A stretch of DNA of 39,151 nucleotides from a virus. Within the stretch, counting starts at the first letter, position 1. The number at the start of each line of letters is the position of its first letter. Both the position numbers and the translations under genes were made by a program. Positions 2,769 through 28,919 of the stretch are shown one piece after another. The notes under the pieces are model-generated. The model was not told the DNA's origin. It saw only the letters and a program-made list of their open reading frames with translations, and made no database searches. The DNA lies in IMG/VR virus record IMGVR_UViG_3300030380_005798, positions 1 through 39,151 of that record; one strand, 5' to 3'.

Positions 2769-5700
2769 TAGTTATCCTTAGTGAGATCAAAGTTGTTAAC
2801 TGATAATAGTCCCAGTCCATATGGTAAATCTGTTCTAGGAGATTCTCCCCCAAGCCTGTCAGTTGGTAAGAATATCTCTACAACTCTTCCAAGACCTGAC
2901 TTGCCAACAGAATTGTGTTTAGCGTTGGCAAAAGCGTTTGCAGCCGATTCATCTAATGATGCCAAAATTGTATCTGGATTGGTCATCATTGCTGATGCAT
3001 AATAAAAACCGCTAGCGACGACTTTATCAGGTGTCGCATCACCCGCAGTTGTAGCTGACAAGTTCAGTATTGAGGTATGTATAGAACTGGGATGAGGGAA
3101 TCCTTCGGTAGATACATGATCTGGTATAGTAGCCCCAGAAAAATTATAACCTTGAGAAAAGATTTGATGAATGATTCCACTTAAATCTGTTCCAACATTA
3201 TTTCTCATTGACCTAGCCACAGGATTGACCGAGAAGAATAATCTAAAGGGTCCAAAATTCTCAAATTCAGATTTACCTAAAAGGTGTTGATTACTTTCAT
3301 CTCTGCCATAGTAGTCTAACAACGAGAGAGAGCTAGTGTCGGGTGTAGAGCTAGGAGCACCCGAGACATCACCCCAGGTCCCTGAAGGTCCAAAGTAACC
3401 TGAATCAAAGGGGTGAACCCCAGAGATCGACAGGTATGAAGCCTTAAGGTTAGAAGTGTCTGCAATATTCCAGATGTGTAGCCTACTACATTTTGCTCCA
3501 GGAAGAGGATCAGACCCCTGATAATCGTAAGCGTATCCCGAAGTGTTAGCCCATCCACAAGGGAAGTGAACGTTCAAGAGATTAACTCTACTATCATCAA
3601 CCGCTCTAACACTCATACCCCCTGTTGTAATGGCAGATACAGTTCCCAATATTGATTGAGCATACTTATAGTTAGTAGCCGATGGAGTGTCTGTTGAAAA
3701 CTTATATCTATTTTCGCTACCTACTGTTGGTATGCCCGCTGGATTTTCCCAGACCCCGTCAGCGCCATCGTCGAAGTTGGCATTAGGATATAGTTGCATC
3801 CAACCGTTACTAACACAAATAGCTTGAGCATCAGTTAAGTTATAATTGTAATGATCAAAATTTTGTGCAGAGCAGTGAGGGCTACCTTGCCACTTATCCT
3901 TCCAGTAGCCTAAGTCTTTTATATTTATACTAGACTTTCTATTAGCTACCAGAGAGGCTCTAGTGGAGTGCAATTCAACCATAGTGTGATTACTTCCGTC
4001 TGTAGATAAGTTGAAGGAAGACACCATTAGATCACCGTTTTGATCCCTATGAGGTCCGAAGTCAATTAATGAGTAATCTTCAGCTAGAGCATCAACACCC
4101 AACCTCATAGCTGCGGTGGGTCCTTGAAGATATATCGCAGACTGCTTACCGGCGTAAAGCCCCGCAAGCTTTAGTTGATACTCTCTAGTGGTAGGACCTA
4201 TGAAAACATTAGCACCCTTAGAAGAACCTCTACAGGTTATGCTAGAGTTACGGGTAGCTTTAATCATTGCGCCATAGGTTGTTTGAACATCCACTAGATC
4301 AGCATCCGTCCCAATATTCGTTCTATCAATGTGAGCATGCACTAAATCTAATTTAGAGTTGTTAGTGGCTTCAATAGAGGGGAGCAGTGTCGATGCCTTT
4401 ACAGCAGAATCTTTCATTAATCTAGGATTAGTGCATCCGAAAGCTCCGCTGGTATAAATCAACCCATATGTAGTGGGTACAGAACTAGTAAACAGTGGTT
4501 TAATAGTAGCAGAGTCGCACCTAATGTCTGATCCGTTTGATGTAAAAGCAAGTTGAGACATTTGGTAATCCTCAGGTGCCGTTGGAAGAACCAAAGAACC
4601 CTTGTAAAGATCTTTATTGTAAATAAGGTGAGAGTTTTTAAGATTCAAAGCTGTGGATTGATTCACAGTGCCTCTCAAGGAATCTACCTCAATATTTGAA
4701 TTTTCGGAATCTAGTCCGAAATAGTTTCCGTCAAGATTTATACGACCACTTAATCGAAGATTACTGTTAGTTAGCTTAATACCAGACTCAGTGTTAAGCT
4801 CTGCGATTAATTGCGTGGCATCTTGCCATTGACCCGCAGTCGCTCCAGTGGAGAGTCCATCTAATTCTGTTCTTCCTCCGACTATGTCAGAGTTTACACA
4901 GTGAACACCTATGTCGTTTCGGGACACACAGTAAAGAGCCTCCATGGAGGGCGCAGGAAGTCCTGATAAAGCGTAACCATCGTAAACAGCGGACACAGAT
5001 TGTCTAGACTTTTCAATATCTCGATCGTAAGTAGATTTTATATTGATAGTAGAATTTACGGCATATATACCTGCACCATAAGAAGATTGTTTTAAGTAGA
5101 AATCTCTCTTATCAGCAAATGGAACTCCCACTCTAGAGCCATCTTTGAATCCGTAGTTTCTGTATCCAACAAATCCTCTTAGAAGATTCACCTCAGAATT
5201 GTCTGCATATAGACCAGCTTGTTTACACCGGGACGCAGAGCATCTCTCAAGGTTGACTGTAGAGTTTTTTATCTCAATACCTCTCTCTGTGGTATTTTCT
5301 CCGTCTACATTGAAGTTTCTTATGAAGATCGGGCCGTTGCACTCGGTAACCTTGATGAAGTCTAATTTGTTTAGGTAAGCGAAAGCGGCAGCGGCTGTGT
5401 TACTATTATTATTGGCTTGAGTACCATCGCCCCAGTTTATTTCAGTTTTATTCAGTTGATTTAACGTGCTAACATCAAAGGAATTCATATTGTCTACACC
5501 CGTTCTATTTGCAGGTATAACATCAAAGGCACTGAATGCGAAGGATGAAGCCGCAGCATACGATGCAGCAGCCAAGTTCCAAGGAGCTATGTCGCTGCCA
5601 ATAGCGGCAGTAAGTCTGTTATTTTGCTTACCTAATACCTTACGAGAAAACACATATGATTTTACTGTGTTGCCTCCTGGATTTGTTGTACCATAGCGAG

Positions 5701-22784: not shown

Positions 22785-24446
22785 TTATCCATTCCTCTGC
22801 TTAGCTTGTTTTGCATCAGTTATAAGCTGGGTCATTTTTTGATTTAAAATTTCAAGCCTTGCATCCATAGCACGACCATCGGCAGACATTCTGTCTTGAG
22901 CTTGAGAAGCTAAAGCAGCAACGATTCTAAAATTACTATCAATCGTGGCGGCCTCAGCCGCTCGCTTTTCACGATCTTTACGCTCTTGATCTTCTCTCTG
23001 CTTTTTGAGTTCTTCCTGAGTGGCCTTGGTGTTCTTCTGAATGGCTTGGAATATTCCAATACCTGCACCAATGCCAGCGCCAGCTAAAGCTCCCAGCGGA
23101 CCAAACATCGCGCCCATAGCAGCACCCTGGCCCGCTCCTCCCAGTATATCGGTAGCGGAATCTAAGCCTCCTCCAGGTGTTGCATCAAACACATCATCGA
23201 TTGCATTCGCAGCAAAAGAGGCTGCAATACCTAATCCACCAGCATGACCTCCAATTTTGGTTGCCATTCCCCCTATACCACCTTTCTTTAAAAGTCCCGC
23301 ATGAAGGGATTTAGATTTTGCTGCAAACCCAGGAGATATTTTATCCAATATCTGAGTGCCCATTGCAGCGCCGCCCTGGAGTTGCATAGCCATTATAATT
23401 GCCGGAGTGATGCTAGCAACAGAGGTCTGAATCGCTGGAGCCACTTCATCAAAGAACTTGTTGGCTTTCTGACGAGCGTTGGTCATGTTCTTAAACTCTT
23501 CTTCCTGAGCTTTTTTGAACTCGTCTTGAACTTTATTGCCACTCTCCATAATTCTAGCTAATTGAAGAGAGGCTTGAAACTGTTGCTTAGACAGACCTAA
23601 CTGAGCAGCAGCAACCTCAGTTCTTGCGAATGCTGGTCCTCCTGTTTGCTCAAACGTAGTAATAACTCTTTCAAAGAACGGTTTAAGACCGTCTAAGCCA
23701 ACTGTGGCTCCCTCGGCAAGCTGATCTCTTACAGTGTCCAGAGACCCTAGAAACTGCTTACCTACATTACCAATGGACGGCTCAAGTAGTCTTAAGACAG
23801 TGTTTACCTGTCTTTGAGCGCCTGCTCCAGCAGCGCCTTGAAGCTCTGTGGCTAACTCACCAAAGGCTCCTACTCCACCCTCGAAAACAGAAAATGCGTC
23901 AAAGCTTTCTTGTAGATTGGCAAGTGATTCTATTAACTTCTCGTTGCTGATTAAGAACTTATCACTTACTTCCTCATTAATCTCAGCCAATCTTTGAACG
24001 CTATCAGTGTCACGACCTGTTATCGAAATTAGATTTGCGTTAAGACTGTTGAGCTTTGCAGTGCTCTGACCTGTTGCAACCATCTTTTCGGTCAGGTCAA
24101 ACACGGCACCGTTATTGATATTCACACCCTTTGTGAAACCATCAACTAGTGCGGCTGCTGTTTCTGCGAATCCTGCTCTTGTTAGTTTTAGCTGAGTTGA
24201 GTTTTCGCTTACGAATTTGCCATACGAGATACCAGCAGCGGTTGCTTTTCTCTGAGACTCATCTGCCTTACTGAGAGCCTTGCTAAGATTGTTTATATTA
24301 TTTGAGTTTGAGTATATAGAAGTTTTAAGTGAATTAATAGACTCTGTTTGAGTCCTGTATACCGTCGCAGTCATCTCTACAGAAGACCTTAGTTTATTAA
24401 GATCGTCTGACAACTGACGCATGGATTCCTGTATTTGATCAACCAT
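22785..24446 (-). CDS. Tape-measure-like protein
   Basis: This 553-aa protein is Ala/Gly/Gln-rich and almost all helical. Residues 1-70 are a Ser/Asn/Leu-rich coiled coil starting MVDQIQESMRQLSDDL. Residues about 70-420 are amphipathic helices. Residues about 425-470 are a glycine-zipper-like hydrophobic stretch (GAAMGAMFGPLGALAGAGIG) able to insert in a membrane, and the last 80 residues are a charged coil (EELKKQREDQERKDREK) followed by a short tail. This is the usual anatomy of a tail-length ruler that is ejected into the host envelope. T4 gp29 is of similar length (590 aa). It overlaps the start of the 145-aa upstream gene's stop by TAATG and lies before the tube/baseplate genes as expected. 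Confidence 0.7.
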   Translation of the reverse strand: MVDQIQESMRQLSDDLNKLRSSVEMTATVYRTQTESINSLKTSIYSNSNNINNLSKALSKADESQRKATAAGISYGKFVSENSTQLKLTRAGFAETAAALVDGFTKGVNINNGAVFDLTEKMVATGQSTAKLNSLNANLISITGRDTDSVQRLAEINEEVSDKFLISNEKLIESLANLQESFDAFSVFEGGVGAFGELATELQGAAGAGAQRQVNTVLRLLEPSIGNVGKQFLGSLDTVRDQLAEGATVGLDGLKPFFERVITTFEQTGGPAFARTEVAAAQLGLSKQQFQASLQLARIMESGNKVQDEFKKAQEEEFKNMTNARQKANKFFDEVAPAIQTSVASITPAIIMAMQLQGGAAMGTQILDKISPGFAAKSKSLHAGLLKKGGIGGMATKIGGHAGGLGIAASFAANAIDDVFDATPGGGLDSATDILGGAGQGAAMGAMFGPLGALAGAGIGAGIGIFQAIQKNTKATQEELKKQREDQERKDREKRAAEAATIDSNFRIVAALASQAQDRMSADGRAMDARLEILNQKMTQLITDAKQAKQRNG

Positions 24447-24883
24447 TATTCAATTTTGTATATTGGAATTACGAAAATATTTGTCCCTGACAATTGCTGG
24501 ACATTTAGTGTTCTAAACTTATCCTTTCCGGTATAACGAGATGTGAGACTTGATCCAAAACCTTTTAGATATTTGAAGTTGCTAACTACGGCTTCTACCT
24601 CATTGTCATATAATTTATTTACTATCTCCATAAAATCTTGAACACTTATCGACTCTGCTCCTACGAAATTTAAAAGAGTGTTTCTAGTGGTCCTTGAGGA
24701 CCAGAGACCGTCAACTCCAGTTCTGCCTGACTGCATAATAAACCCAAATCTGTCTTGATTGTTGTAAGACAGAGACACGATATCTCCAGCCTTTACACCT
24801 AAATATGAGGTGCTGATGGGTTTAGGAGGCAAGAACCTACCATCAAGAGAGATCGCATTTAGTGCTTCAATTGTGGTAACCAT
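24446..24883 (-). CDS. Unknown 145-aa protein heading the tail/baseplate run
   Basis: I do not recognise this protein. It is beta-rich with SYLGVKAGDIVSLSYNNQDR near residues 25-45, RFGFIMQSGRTG after that, and a closing TNIFVIPIYKIE strand. The central part (AESISVQDFMEIVNKLYDNE) is helical. It is the first gene of the leftward run that contains tape measure, hub, spike and wedge proteins, and it has a candidate T4-type late promoter about 60 bases upstream. There is no Shine-Dalgarno; the leader is A/T-rich. A tail-completion, tube-terminator or chaperone role would fit the position, but nothing in the sequence decides it. Confidence 0.6.
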   Translation of the reverse strand: MVTTIEALNAISLDGRFLPPKPISTSYLGVKAGDIVSLSYNNQDRFGFIMQSGRTGVDGLWSSRTTRNTLLNFVGAESISVQDFMEIVNKLYDNEVEAVVSNFKYLKGFGSSLTSRYTGKDKFRTLNVQQLSGTNIFVIPIYKIE

Positions 24884-24934
24884 GTAATATTTTTAATTTT
24901 TCAAAAAAAGATCTTTCGTTTTTGGGGTTCTGGG

Positions 24935-24958
24935 ACTATTACTATTTATATAAATGAG
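24935..24958 (+). promoter_or_regulatory. Start-codon-linked leader element, copy 1
   Basis: These 24 bases run from ACTATTACTATTTATA through the ATGAG of the gene at 24954. The copy at 26139-26162 is identical in 21 of 24 positions, with the ATG at the same place. No Shine-Dalgarno is present. A -10-like TATTTA lies 11 bases before the ATG, so a leaderless transcript is possible; an mRNA operator at the start codon is the alternative. Confidence 0.5.
24943..24950 (-). promoter_or_regulatory. Candidate T4-type late promoter (TATAAATA)
   Basis: The minus strand reads TATAAATA exactly, in the intergenic space, 59 bases before the ATG of the 24446-24883 gene. T4-family late promoters consist of essentially this octamer. 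It lies within a 12-base palindrome, ATTTATATAAAT (24944-24955), and overlaps the leader of the plus-strand gene starting at 24954, so the same bases may instead serve that gene. In AT-rich DNA this octamer also occurs by chance inside coding regions here. Confidence 0.35.
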
Positions 24959-25250
24959 CAACTTAGAACAGGACTTAGTCGAAACAATAGATTTACTTAA
25001 CTTTACTTTTTCTAGTGATTTTGTAGATAAGTGGTCATTTAAATACGGAAAAAGATTACCCAGTCTATTACAGATCAGACTACTTAAGTCCTTGGACACA
25101 AGAAAACCTTTAAAGATTCAAACAATTTATAAGTTTTTAGTTATTGACTCTGGGTTTAATGAGGAAGTCATTAAATCTTTCTTAGAAGATATTGACTACG
25201 AGATCTATCGCCCTATAATTAAAGGATCGCTGAGAGACCTAAACACATGA
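24954..25250 (+). CDS. Unknown 98-aa soluble protein
   Basis: This protein is not recognised. It begins MSNLEQDLVETIDLLNFTF, is Leu/Lys/Asp-rich with predicted helices (RLPSLLQIRLLKSL, then VIKSFLEDIDYEIYRPIIK) and has no cysteine or membrane segment. It is the first gene of a plus-strand pair facing against the virion genes, and its start shares a 24-base leader element with the primase gene, so it may be expressed with replication genes (inference). The stop overlaps the next ATG (ATGA), suggesting coupled translation. A small DNA-replication or recombination accessory protein would fit, without sequence proof. Confidence 0.65.
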   Translation: MSNLEQDLVETIDLLNFTFSSDFVDKWSFKYGKRLPSLLQIRLLKSLDTRKPLKIQTIYKFLVIDSGFNEEVIKSFLEDIDYEIYRPIIKGSLRDLNT

Positions 25251-25396
25251 GTGAATACGACAACAAAGAGAGCACGTTCCAGGGACTTCAAAAGCACCGC
25301 TACACAGTTCAGTGTGCAGGGGAAATGAGCCAAGGAGATGCTTGGTGCATGCTGATTTTCCTTGCTTACGTGTTTATTTACTGGCTTTTTTCTTAG
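25247..25396 (+). CDS. Small 49-aa protein with C-terminal membrane segment
   Basis: An ATG at 25247 overlaps the preceding stop as ATGA and opens a 49-codon frame ending at TAG 25394-25396. The product starts MSEYDNKESTFQGLQKHRYT, and residues 33-48 (WCMLIFLAYVFIYWLF) form a single hydrophobic segment ending one residue before the stop, like a tail-anchored or small inner-membrane protein. It fills the space between the 98-aa gene and the nuclease gene and overlaps the nuclease stop by 23 bases on the other strand. Support is the coupling and the hydrophobic anchor; no family is recognised. An inner start at 25325, preceded at a distance by an A/G-rich run, is a weaker option. Confidence 0.45.
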   Translation: MSEYDNKESTFQGLQKHRYTVQCAGEMSQGDAWCMLIFLAYVFIYWLFS

Positions 25397-26159
25397 CCTC
25401 TTTCTGCTCGTCAATTCGCTGGCAGACAACACTGTCAGAGTGAAATCTAGGACAAGCTTCCTGATACTCACACCAGTCGCAGAAGACATTTTCCTGAGCC
25501 CAGAACTCGTCTTTCTTCTTCTTGCGAATACGCCAAACTTTCTCTGTTTGTTGCTTCTTCCATCTGTCAATTTGGAATTTGCTAAACTTTACAGTAACAA
25601 AGTTTCCTGTGACAGGGTAGTAGTGGGCACAGAATATTTGATTGTAGGGAACGTCATATAGCTTGTGGATGGCCCATGCGTAGCCTTTTAATTGATTATC
25701 ATCCATGAGAGTTTTCTTTTTCTTCTCTCTCTTAGATGTTTTGTAGTCAATGACAAGATACCCTCCGTCTCTACCTTTGATAACCCTATCTATTACTCCT
25801 ATGAAGCTGATGTCGTGCTTCTCGTCTAGAGGAACGTTAACAACCTGCTCAGTGGACATGGTCTCACCCAGGTTTTGATTCCAAACTATAAAGTTCTCTA
25901 GACAAGACTTCATCCTGTCATTCTCATGGAAAGGAACTTTGTAGGTAGATCTCTCCTGTTCTGCAATCTTAAGTAGAGATTTTAGGTCTTTCTCCTTGTA
26001 TCCCAGTTCAAATATCTTATGAATGAATGACCCGAAGTTCAAGGCATCCTCATTCTTCGCTCCGAATCCCGGTAACTTTAAGATATATTTCAGTCTGTAT
26101 TTCCACAGGCACTGGTCTATAATATCGCTTTTAGAAGCACTAATACTATTTATAAACAT
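25374..26159 (-). CDS. Cas4/RecB-like PD-(D/E)XK exonuclease with predicted Fe-S cluster
   Basis: This 261-aa protein is a PD-(D/E)XK nuclease of the RecB/Cas4/AddB type. Visible motifs are His47 in FGSFIHKIFELG, Asp124 in GVIDRVIKG, Asp138 and Lys140 in LVIDYKTSK, and Gln156 and Tyr160 in DDNQLKGYAW. Cys17 together with Cys227, Cys230 and Cys236 (CDWCEYQEAC) reproduces the one-plus-three cysteine pattern that binds a 4Fe-4S cluster in this family. It probably acts on single-stranded or broken DNA in recombination or replication. I chose the ATG at 26159 rather than 26177 because SISASKSDIIDQC then lies at the usual distance from the start and because it overlaps the primase start in CATG. 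A Lys-rich tail ends the protein. Confidence 0.85.
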   Translation of the reverse strand: MFINSISASKSDIIDQCLWKYRLKYILKLPGFGAKNEDALNFGSFIHKIFELGYKEKDLKSLLKIAEQERSTYKVPFHENDRMKSCLENFIVWNQNLGETMSTEQVVNVPLDEKHDISFIGVIDRVIKGRDGGYLVIDYKTSKREKKKKTLMDDNQLKGYAWAIHKLYDVPYNQIFCAHYYPVTGNFVTVKFSKFQIDRWKKQQTEKVWRIRKKKKDEFWAQENVFCDWCEYQEACPRFHSDSVVCQRIDEQKEAKKKASK

Positions 26160-26162
26160 GAG
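26139..26162 (+). promoter_or_regulatory. Start-codon-linked leader element, copy 2
   Basis: These 24 bases run from ACTAATACTATTTATA through the ATGAG of the primase gene at 26158 and match 24935-24958 in 21 of 24 positions. No Shine-Dalgarno is present. The minus strand of this stretch encodes codons 1-7 of the nuclease, so the sequence serves two genes at once. It also contains TATAAATA on the minus strand (26147-26154), but as that lies inside the nuclease frame a promoter for the nuclease is unlikely. Confidence 0.5.
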
Positions 26163-27108
26163 ATCTGATTCCTTCATTAGAACATACTGTTTGAATAAGT
26201 TCCAGTCTAATTATAGACTTCAGAGCGATGATACTGAAATAGTAGTTCCTTCAATATTCATAGACAACGACTACAAGCGTCACATGTCCATCAACACCGA
26301 AACAGGTCTTTGGAGATGCTTTAAGACTGGCGAGGTCGGTAACTTTTTGAAGCTATACGCTATCCTAGAGAAATGCAGCTATCGTGAAGCTTATGAAAAG
26401 TTTGTATTTGAGGACTTCATGGCAGGATACAAGGGGCGTCGTCCCCTTGAAGAGTTTGATCCAAATGAGATTGAGTCTGACCTGGATGAGGTTGAGAACT
26501 TTAAAGCTGCGGAAGATCATTCATTTCCAAAGTCTAGAGGGGTTGATCAGTTCAAGTTCTACGTAGCTACGGGCGGTAAATACAAAGGTAGACTTATTAT
26601 CCCGTTTGTAAATCGAAACGGTAAGCTTTTCTATTTTCAAGCAAGGGCATTAGGGGATGAGCAGCCTAAATATTTGAACTGTAAGAACCTCAAGAGTTCA
26701 CAGGTTCTATACCCATTTGATTATGGCTCTCAGGAGCCTCTGTATATCACTGAGGGCGTTTTCGACTGCCTTAGCCTACAAGCAGTGGGTCTGAATGCAA
26801 CGACCACTCTAAGCTGCTTTACGAGCCGTGAGCAGATGCTTCAACTTAGTCAGTATGTTGGACCTCTGGTGTGCGCCTTCGACAGTGATGGCCCAGGTAT
26901 TACTGGCAGGAAGAAGTTCATGGACTTAGCGCATTGGCTTCGTAGAGATGATCTCTTTACCGTTGTGCCGCCCGAGCCCTTCAAAGATTGGAATGAGATC
27001 TTGATTAAGAAGGGTGTGAACTTTCTAAAAGCAGAGGCAGAGAAGATTAGTAAGCTAGATAAGCTTAACCTAACCTACCTAGCGTATGATAAAGGCCAAG
27101 TAATTTGA
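26158..27108 (+). CDS. DnaG/T4 gp61-type primase with TOPRIM domain
   Basis: This 316-aa protein makes RNA primers for lagging-strand synthesis. The N-terminal part (residues about 30-65) contains MSINTETGLWRCFKTGEVGNF, which aligns with the end of the primase zinc-ribbon (the YHCFGCGAGG-type segment in DnaG), but the paired cysteines are missing. Residues about 140-175 hold GRLIIPFVNRNGKLFYFQAR, the segment before TOPRIM. The TOPRIM core follows: Glu199 in LYITEGVFDC, Asp242 and Asp244 in AFDSDGPG, and DWNE at 277-280. The start at 26158 is chosen because the upstream in-frame sequence is antisense to the nuclease. It is head-to-head with the nuclease and its last 30 bases overlap the convergent 27079-28017 gene. 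Confidence 0.85.
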   Translation: MRSDSFIRTYCLNKFQSNYRLQSDDTEIVVPSIFIDNDYKRHMSINTETGLWRCFKTGEVGNFLKLYAILEKCSYREAYEKFVFEDFMAGYKGRRPLEEFDPNEIESDLDEVENFKAAEDHSFPKSRGVDQFKFYVATGGKYKGRLIIPFVNRNGKLFYFQARALGDEQPKYLNCKNLKSSQVLYPFDYGSQEPLYITEGVFDCLSLQAVGLNATTTLSCFTSREQMLQLSQYVGPLVCAFDSDGPGITGRKKFMDLAHWLRRDDLFTVVPPEPFKDWNEILIKKGVNFLKAEAEKISKLDKLNLTYLAYDKGQVI

Positions 27109-28017
27109 TACTATTGTTTGATTCAGAGCATCAAACTTCAGCCTAGCAACGTAGGAGCCCGTAAGCGATCCAAGAGTGCCATCAAGCACCGATGGATGAG
27201 TCTTTAAGGCTTCTGTATCAAGTGTGAAGATAACGGTGTTTTCTGAAGTGGTGTCTACAAGGCTCGATGTCTCAGCGTAACCGGAAACAGTAACTCTCGA
27301 AGCTAAGTTCCTATCATCATTTTGTTTGTAAATCTCAATCTGAGGATCGGTCACCAATGACTGTTTGAATAGATTGGTAATGCTACGATCTATATTTGCA
27401 TTCTCTAGAGTGAACTCATTTGTAAACTTGAGATCAACCTTGGAACCTAAAACAACGTGATTATTCTCAAGTCTGGTTGCAACTCTAAAGAGAAGGGGTT
27501 CCGTGACTGAGAAGAACCTATCATCTGTGAGAGTGAACTCGTTTATTACAGTGTCTAAATCAGATAATGATGTTCTCTTAACAGTCCAAACATCAATGTA
27601 ATCTCCAGTGGAATCTACTCTATTGGTGATTGTAGTGTCGCCTGAAAGGTTGAAAACACCACTCGCAGTGTCAGAGTTCAACACAACCGCATACTTACCA
27701 ACGTCTAACTTGTAGATACCCGAAGCATCGGTTACGTTATAATTTGAAGGGTTAAAGTCGATACTAGTTGTGTTAGCGTCGGCGCTAGGAGAGAAGTGCA
27801 TTAAAACTTCTCCAGTAACAGCGGTATCAATTTCCCCGTCTGACGTTATAACAGAGCTAGGGGATTCATTGTTTGATGCAGCAAAAATAGACACACCGCT
27901 GATTGAATGAGGGTCAGTGTATTGACCATCGTTGATAAAGTATAGTATCAAGGCTGTAGGTCCGAGAACGGTGGGCCTCTCATGCCTAGTAGTTACTGGA
28001 TTATCGTTGATTTTCAT
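27079..28017 (-). CDS. Unknown beta-rich virion protein
   Basis: This 312-aa protein is not recognised. Its composition (Thr, Asn, Asp, Ser, Val; few Cys or Trp) and repeated strand-like segments (SGIYKLDVGKYAVVLNSD, ENTVIFTLDTEAL, GSYVARLKFDALN) suggest stacked beta or Ig-like domains as in neck, tail or fibre proteins. The N-terminus has PTVLGPTALILYFINDGQYT. It starts one base after the stop of the frameshift extension (TAA then ATG), so it is in the same transcript as the gp26-like protein. Its last 30 bases overlap the end of the primase on the other strand; LAFIIR is the natural C-terminus. Confidence 0.6.
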   Translation of the reverse strand: MKINDNPVTTRHERPTVLGPTALILYFINDGQYTDPHSISGVSIFAASNNESPSSVITSDGEIDTAVTGEVLMHFSPSADANTTSIDFNPSNYNVTDASGIYKLDVGKYAVVLNSDTASGVFNLSGDTTITNRVDSTGDYIDVWTVKRTSLSDLDTVINEFTLTDDRFFSVTEPLLFRVATRLENNHVVLGSKVDLKFTNEFTLENANIDRSITNLFKQSLVTDPQIEIYKQNDDRNLASRVTVSGYAETSSLVDTTSENTVIFTLDTEALKTHPSVLDGTLGSLTGSYVARLKFDALNQTIVSNYLAFIIR

Positions 28018-28242
28018 TTAGCCTTGCATCCTTTGAATTTCATCTGTGTAAAATTTTAAGAAAGCTAACCGCTCCCTCTTAGTCATCCCCTTAACATCAT
28101 TGTAAGAAAATCCGACTTTACTTACTAATATGTAGGCTTGTTGAAGGAGATCCTCTGAGGATAAAACTTCGGTTAGCTCACCGAAAAAAAATTGACATCT
28201 AAAGGAATAGCCATTGTTTCGGTGTGTGAACACTCTGGGCAT
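28018..28242 (-). CDS. -1 frame extension of the gp26-like protein (tail-assembly chaperone, GT-like)
   Basis: This frame overlaps the end of the gp26-like gene by 70 bases and then runs 55 codons beyond the slippery site: FGELTEVLSSEDLLQQAYIL, a short middle, then GMTKRERLAFLKFY and EIQRMQG. The formal ATG at 28242 lies in the gp26-like coding region with no Shine-Dalgarno, and the 55 codons past the slip contain only one late Met, so independent translation is poorly supported. A -1 slip on T8 (28184-28191) gives a fusion of about 300 residues: gp26-like residues 1-245 plus 55 from here. The lambda G/GT pair and similar tail chaperones work this way. The small helical tail resembles such T-domains only in size and charge. 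Confidence 0.65.
   Translation of the reverse strand: MPRVFTHRNNGYSFRCQFFFGELTEVLSSEDLLQQAYILVSKVGFSYNDVKGMTKRERLAFLKFYTDEIQRMQG
28168..28191 (-). promoter_or_regulatory. Predicted -1 ribosomal frameshift site
   Basis: On the coding (minus) strand the frame reads AAT TTT TTT TCG, a run of eight T that includes a perfect T_TTT_TTT heptamer (A-run at 28184-28191 on plus). Next to it TTCGGT (28185-28180) pairs with ACCGAA (28173-28168) around a six-base loop GAGCTA, and the zero-frame TAA stop (28175-28173) lies at the loop/stem edge. The hairpin begins within the slippery run, closer than is usual for stimulatory structures, so its role is uncertain. Confidence 0.6.
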
Positions 28243-28919
28243 TCAAACACGAATCTAGGATCGATTCCGTATTCAGGCTTTCCAATTTCTGATATTAACT
28301 TCTTAGTGTCCAGAATATGCATTCTCTTTATTGCTTTGGATACGAATACAGGATCAGAGTTTCCGTTTATCGAGATAACGAAGCGATAAAGATTATTGTA
28401 GGAAGTGTCTACATCCTTTAAAAACACATCTTCCTTGCTCCTAGGAAACCTCACCACTGCCTTTACCTTTAGTTTGGGAAGATCAATCTCTCTAGGGTCT
28501 TGCAGATCATCAGGCACCTGATTCATATTCAAATGCTCGGACAAGACTAGCTCAGAACGAATATCGCTTTGACAGTTGGGACAAGTAATGTTGAAGTTGT
28601 AATTTTCTCCGTAGGATGCCTCTCTTACTTTCATCAGAAGAAAAATCTTATCCATGGATAAAAGCTCAGACACCTCAACTCCCTCTAGAGATTTTTCTAA
28701 GAGACTGCCTACAACGTCTTCGGTGGATCTGCTAGCTAATATTTTCTGCTCATCAAGATACGTCAAGGGTTTTACTTGAATACCTTGAAAGCCTTGATAA
28801 AATTTACCTTTTGAGGGTATGTCCAAAATTGTCATGGAATCCTCAGAATAAGATGAGAACAAATCATCTAGCTGAGAATCCCTGCTATTTTTCTCTATTA
28901 TTGGTTTATTTTCTGACAT
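28173..28919 (-). CDS. gp26-like baseplate/tail assembly protein with four-Cys zinc site
   Basis: This 248-aa protein resembles the T4 baseplate protein family that includes gp26. Residues about 30-60 read MTILDIPSKGKFYQGFQGIQ with VKPLTYLDEQKIL, a segment conserved in that family. Cys113 and Cys116 (CPNC) and Cys227 and Cys230 (CPEC) form a split zinc knuckle, as expected for the family. The role in T4 is assembly of the baseplate hub. The zero-frame protein ends six codons after the slippery run (NFFSVS). A -1 shift at that run would extend it into the 28018-28242 frame. The start is preceded by AATAGGTTACAT, a weak ribosome-binding site, and is divergent from the helicase gene at 28956. 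Confidence 0.75.
   Translation of the reverse strand: MSENKPIIEKNSRDSQLDDLFSSYSEDSMTILDIPSKGKFYQGFQGIQVKPLTYLDEQKILASRSTEDVVGSLLEKSLEGVEVSELLSMDKIFLLMKVREASYGENYNFNITCPNCQSDIRSELVLSEHLNMNQVPDDLQDPREIDLPKLKVKAVVRFPRSKEDVFLKDVDTSYNNLYRFVISINGNSDPVFVSKAIKRMHILDTKKLISEIGKPEYGIDPRFVFECPECSHTETMAIPLDVNFFSVS

Follow-up and report, generated by a model that had tools for sequence, protein, structure and literature searches.

The window, a 39,151-nucleotide stretch of DNA that forms part of a 39.6-kb virus record (IMGVR_UViG_3300030380_005798), carries T4-type genes for the large terminase, the portal, gp25-like and gp53-like baseplate proteins and a UvsW-type helicase. On its minus strand lies a gene for a gp26-like protein; judging by the sequence, two forms of one tail-assembly chaperone (TAC), short and long, are very probably produced from this gene by the phage through a -1 slip at a run of eight T (T8). 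The 3' end of this gene reads AAT TTT TTT TCG GTG AGC TAA. The original prediction had pointed to this end of the gp26-like frame, to the T8 with its T_TTT_TTT heptamer and to a 55-codon continuation in the -1 frame starting with FGELTEVLSS, and we found sequence, coordinates and frame to be as described. The features of the locus are as follows:

28919 to 28173, minus strand: gp26-like gene, whose frame 0 product of 248 residues is the putative short chaperone (TAC-N, the gpG equivalent) according to PF12322, PHROG 150 and an AlphaFold2 (AF2) model
28184 to 28191, minus strand: T8 run, invariant in 14 of 14 distinct sequences compared
28191 to 28185, minus strand: in-frame slippery heptamer T_TTT_TTT, within the T8
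28173 to 28175, minus strand: TAA stop of the short form, 9 nucleotides 3' of the heptamer and TAA in 18 of 18 loci compared
28018 to 28185, minus strand: -1 frame extension of 55 codons plus TAA, the predicted C-terminal domain of the long form (TAC-C, the T equivalent), open and under purifying selection
28240 to 28242, minus strand: ATG lying within the gp26-like gene and belonging to the -1 frame, heading an open reading frame of 74 residues, without a Shine-Dalgarno sequence and not conserved; not a credible start
28168 to 28185, minus strand: inverted repeat TTCGGT GAGCTA ACCGAA, overlapping the end of the slip site and not conserved

The extension reads FGELTEVLSS...RMQG and is closed by the TAA at 28020-28018, which gives a predicted fusion of 245 + 55 = 300 residues; its junction peptide ...DVNFFFGELTEV... 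is badly located for trypsin. A -1 programmed frameshift at T_TTT_TTT, yielding chaperone forms of 248 and 300 residues, is the explanation in which we place high confidence, and the evidence that carries it is comparative. A scan of IMG/VR returned 18 relatives, 17 of them (metagenomic, 48-87% identical) with a complete 3' end, and these 17 together with the window form a comparison set of 18 loci with 14 distinct 380-bp stretches. The pattern NNT TTT TTT TCR GTG ASC TAA is kept in all 18 loci, and in all of them the -1 frame stays open for 51-60 codons past the stop. Over the 48 codons that follow the stop, the 14 distinct sequences hold no stop codon in the -1 frame, while each has 5-8 of them in frame 0 and 2-8 in frame +1; the median pairwise ratio of nonsynonymous to synonymous differences (pN/pS) over the same codons is 0.34 in the -1 frame, 1.06 in frame 0 and 1.31 in frame +1. 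The alignment of relatives proposed with the original prediction thus found the T-run undisrupted, the overlap and the -1 frame conserved and no conserved downstream start, and the short and roughly 300-residue forms it had postulated are supported by the kept T8, stop and -1 frame and by the selection on that frame. That the frame is open by chance, or arises from a sequencing or assembly error at the homopolymer, was worth considering, as a 51-codon opening is by itself not very rare at such composition and T-runs are error-prone; the recurrence of the same arrangement in 18 contigs, with selection limited to the -1 frame and no stops in 14 distinct sequences, refutes this explanation and leaves it a negligible probability.

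Conservation of the slip site goes beyond what the protein demands. Both slip-site Phe codons are TTT in each of the 14 distinct sequences, while the 20 other codons with an invariant amino acid in the last 80 codons upstream all show synonymous variation (20/20). The codon before TTT TTT always has T as its third base, although six different codons for five amino acids (N, S, G, T, D) occur there. Because TTT TTT is fixed, the preceding codon is always NNT and other invariant codons vary synonymously, we conclude that the slippery heptamer itself is under selection. Unusually high nucleotide conservation among the 14 sequences was also seen at 28109-28140 of the window, where the codons for QAYILVSK lie in the -1 frame (CAAGCSTAYATATTAGTAAGTAAR); no structure accounting for it was found.

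The same comparison bears on whether the C-terminal domain could be a separate small protein, its translation coupled to that of the gp26-like gene and begun within or beyond that gene. The window does hold an in-frame ATG at 28242, many of its genes overlap at start and stop, and cyanophage annotation gives the corresponding domain its own coding sequence ("baseplate hub assembly catalyst"). Set against this, the -1 frame upstream of the slip is devoid of ATG, GTG and TTG in 9 of the 14 distinct sequences, the next start codons fall inside the domain, and in two loci (L008 and L013) the -1 frame opens merely 22 nucleotides before the stop, so that independent initiation is not the conserved mode. 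Conservation of the fused protein, moreover, begins at the FFF of the slip site and continues onward, with 20 invariant residues, and a fixed TTT TTT likewise speaks against a separate protein, which we regard as very unlikely. The claim that the downstream frame lacks a credible start needs qualification: there is no Shine-Dalgarno sequence and the ATG is not conserved, but the window does contain that ATG.

The gp26-like protein belongs to PF12322 (T4_baseplate; E 2.5e-13, residues 34-239 on profile positions 9-212), its 50.7 bits exceeding the gathering cut-off of 24.5 bits, and it matches PHROG 150 "baseplate hub" at E 9.9e-14. Both T4 gp26 (E 8.8e-64) and T4 gp51 (E 3.9e-52) are members of PF12322, gp51 consisting of the same domain as gp26 with about 48 additional C-terminal residues. 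An AF2 model of the short form reached a predicted local distance difference test (pLDDT) score of 84, and its closest structure in BFVD is the baseplate hub protein of Bacillus phage SP-15 (E 1e-15, template modelling score 0.77). Plain Foldseek against the Protein Data Bank (PDB) returned nothing at E 0.001 for this model, and chaperones surfaced only with a second-look aligner, whose best two matches were YqbN (3klu) at Z 6.7 and, at Z 6.3, the tail assembly chaperone of HK97 (2ob9), the next scoring Z 3.6. Model residues 28-105 superpose on 2ob9 at 2.8 Å over 66 residues, and residues 8-105 on 3klu over 92 residues; both matches cover the N-terminal half only, at 8-9% identity. Searching the PDB by sequence with the gp26-like protein or T4 gp51 yielded no relative. 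The rest of the short form has weak zinc-ribbon matches and two conserved CxxC pairs (C113/C116 and C227/C230), and for the C-terminal extension AF2 predicts four helices with modest confidence (pLDDT 70).

Cyanophages supply the link to gp51. We collected 80 cyanophage-type loci (L048-L127), 56 of them distinct, and in all 56 the gp26 gene ends NNT TTT TTC Nxx stop. A gp51-like domain occupies the -1 frame in 53 of the 56; in the remaining three it was missed by the motif used, and two of these three loci (L064 and L083) end less than 100 nucleotides after the match. The alignment of the fused cyanophage protein with T4 gp51 spans the full length of the fusion (residues 8 to 246, hhalign E 8.7e-13); that of the window-family fusion with the cyanophage fusion starts at residue 28, reaches the end and brings the two FF junctions into line (hhalign probability 89%, E 2.5e-6). 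As in the window, the cyanophage gp26 and "gp51 baseplate hub assembly catalyst" are linked by -1, with NNT TTT TTY just before the stop and the same domain order; unlike the window, the heptamer is T_TTT_TTC and an ATG occurs in the C-terminal domain soon after the slip, which is why the domain has been annotated as a gene of its own. The small cyanophage gene called "baseplate hub assembly catalyst" (gp51) most likely encodes the C-terminal portion of a chaperone made by frameshifting and is not a separate gene. The same -1 layout is found in XacN1 and RAS14 (T_TTT_TTT) and in Atu_ph07, phiAS5, IC12 and Deifobo (T_TTT_TTC). Cyanophage S-SCSM1 (L027, 3165-3368) departs from 53 related loci: it keeps T_TTT_TTC, but its -1 frame runs into a stop immediately and the domain is found in the +1 frame; this exception is either a sequence error or a lineage with a separate start.

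On PF12322 membership, the match of the N-terminal part to chaperone structures and the alignment of the cyanophage fused product with T4 gp51, the locus is, as read from sequence and a predicted model, a TAC-N/TAC-NC chaperone gene of the lambda G/GT-like kind. The tie between the gp26 family and G/GT chaperones, drawn in the original prediction, is supported by the shared membership of gp26 and gp51 in PF12322, the chaperone-like fold and the cyanophage fusion aligned to gp51.

These loci also bear on the nature of the slip, since the same two proteins could come from mixed mRNA if RNA polymerase slipped on the eight Ts. In favour of such transcriptional slippage is the uninterrupted T8 itself, invariant in this lineage and, at 28184-28191, the sole A or T homopolymer of at least eight within the 39-kb window. 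In the 56 distinct cyanophage-type loci, however, only seven T are followed by C (NNT TTT TTC), the feature common to all being the tandem-slip heptamer rather than an extended homopolymer, and the eighth T in the window family is accounted for by coding, as TCR for Ser in frame 0 and TTC for Phe in frame -1. Since the same layout occurs in relatives whose seven T are followed by C, transcriptional slippage is the less likely explanation, and we consider it improbable.

Several observations weigh against a frameshifted chaperone at this locus. The gp26-like gene is not adjacent to the candidate tape-measure gene, itself weak (22785-24446, PHROG 167, E 3.7e-5), unlike the canonical order; in Listeria phage LIS04 and in SP-15 the chaperone gene stands between tail tube and tape measure. 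Structural Z scores of 6-7 lie in the middling range of the tool. An isolated 55-residue C-terminal domain was not significantly similar to T4 gp51 or to the cyanophage domain (hhalign probability below 1%), so the link of the window to T4 gp51 rests on the full fusion and the cyanophage intermediates; compared with T4 gp51 directly, the fused form of the window aligns over 13 columns only (hhalign). Finally, no conserved RNA structure was found after the slip site by RNAalifold, single-sequence folds or comparison of the repeat: RNAalifold gave no consensus pairs over 203 columns, and folds of nine single sequences had z-scores from -3.5 to +1.8 and differing structures. The TTCGGT/ACCGAA repeat that had been noted beside the run is complete in the window only, the other 13 distinct sequences having 1-3 mismatches that leave 3-5 of the 6 pairs; as the repeat overlaps the slip site and is not conserved, we rejected it as a frameshift stimulator.

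The segment between the candidate tape measure and the chaperone gene (22785-28919) holds a protein of 312 residues of no known family, a Toprim primase-like gene on the opposite strand, a PD-(D/E)XK nuclease and a 145-residue open reading frame. Within 25374-27108, the nuclease frame (minus strand) and the Toprim primase-like frame (plus strand) overlap, as listed, by 155 nucleotides at their 5' ends, and the Toprim primase-like protein probably starts at a later ATG than the one listed.

We infer from the above that slippage occurs at the heptamer, at some rate, that it is ribosomal and that its products act in tail assembly. Most ribosomes would end at the TAA and release the 248-residue short form, while in a minority the two Phe-tRNAs would re-pair one base back on U_UUU_UUU in a tandem slip, after which the -1 frame would be translated to give the 300-residue long form with its helical C-terminal domain. 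By analogy with lambda gpG and gpGT, the domain present in both forms would attach in many copies to the tape-measure protein, tail-tube subunits would be recruited by the C-terminal domain of the long, less abundant form, and neither form would remain in the finished tail. The slippery heptamer of lambda is G_GGA_AAG, differing from the T_TTT_TTT of the window. In lambda the tape-measure protein is bound by the part that gpG and gpGT share and the tube protein by the T part, and the long form carries a C-terminal extension (PMC5009743); such an extension is also predicted for the window. Unlike the lambda proteins, that of the window includes an additional half that is zinc-ribbon-like and bears two CxxC motifs.

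In other phages the C-terminal domain of the chaperone sits in the +1 frame. This is the case in LIS04, SP-15 and Streptococcus phage GXN1 (L019 6632-6937, L020 6590-6910 and L021 6635-7000), which have xCC CGA TT at the junction in common; in SP-15 and LIS04 the downstream domain comes directly after gp26 and before the tape measure. Between SP-15 and LIS04, over 38 codons, the +1 frame has pN 0.16 and pS 0.99, whereas pN exceeds pS in the other two frames, and coding selection is thus seen in the +1 frame alone. An open +1 frame across the end of the gp26-like gene is also present in Microcystis phage Mel-JY01 (L034, about 3140-3431), Streptomyces phage BRock (L030, about 3143-3386) and Alishewanella phage Slickus01 (L033, about 3029-3347); these three look to be +1 as well, with less support than SP-15, LIS04 and GXN1. 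It is conceivable, at somewhat less than even chances, that PF12322 has switched repeatedly in how the long form is produced, by a -1 slip (T_TTT_TTT or T_TTT_TTC) in most lineages, that of the window among them, by an apparent +1 slip in SP-15, LIS04, GXN1 and possibly others, and from separate genes in the T4 group. If so, evolution would have conserved the need for two forms and no particular decoding mechanism, and the +1 branch would not have been described before.

The T4-like TAC-N/TAC-NC pair (T4 gp26/gp51) resembles the window in its PF12322 domain and in its short and long forms with a common N-terminal part. In T4, 26 and 51 are two distinct genes transcribed divergently, in agreement with the earlier statement that T4 gp26 is not frameshifted, whereas the window has one gene with T_TTT_TTT. 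Vladimirov, Gautam and Davidson are reported to name genes 26 and 51 in the abstract of their 2022 paper and to describe frameshifting as kept in several T4-like groups. As quoted elsewhere, that work is credited with poly-T -1 signals in the TAC-N genes of T4-like phages (PMC12846349), and the PRFect paper takes from it that some T4-like phages encode the short form and the long fusion in two different genes, with no frameshifting (PMC10274946). To go by these secondary accounts, Vladimirov, Gautam & Davidson (2022) have already published both the chaperone role of gp26/gp51 and the poly-T -1 signals of T4-like phages, and the window locus therefore adds to an already known kind. Nothing further relevant that joins gp26, gp51 and frameshifting was recognised from titles and abstracts. 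A TAC locus of Vandenendeviridae/Andersonviridae (phage Adele) has a -1 frameshift at GTTTTT at the end of TAC-N, argued from a conserved open -1 frame (PMC12846349); it differs from the window in belonging to other phage families and in lying directly upstream of the tape-measure gene.

With this locus, a diverse uncultivated T4-like lineage joins the phages with a frameshifted tail-assembly chaperone, on clean comparative evidence. It supports the view that the separate genes 26 and 51 of T4 do the job of one frameshifted gene in other phages.
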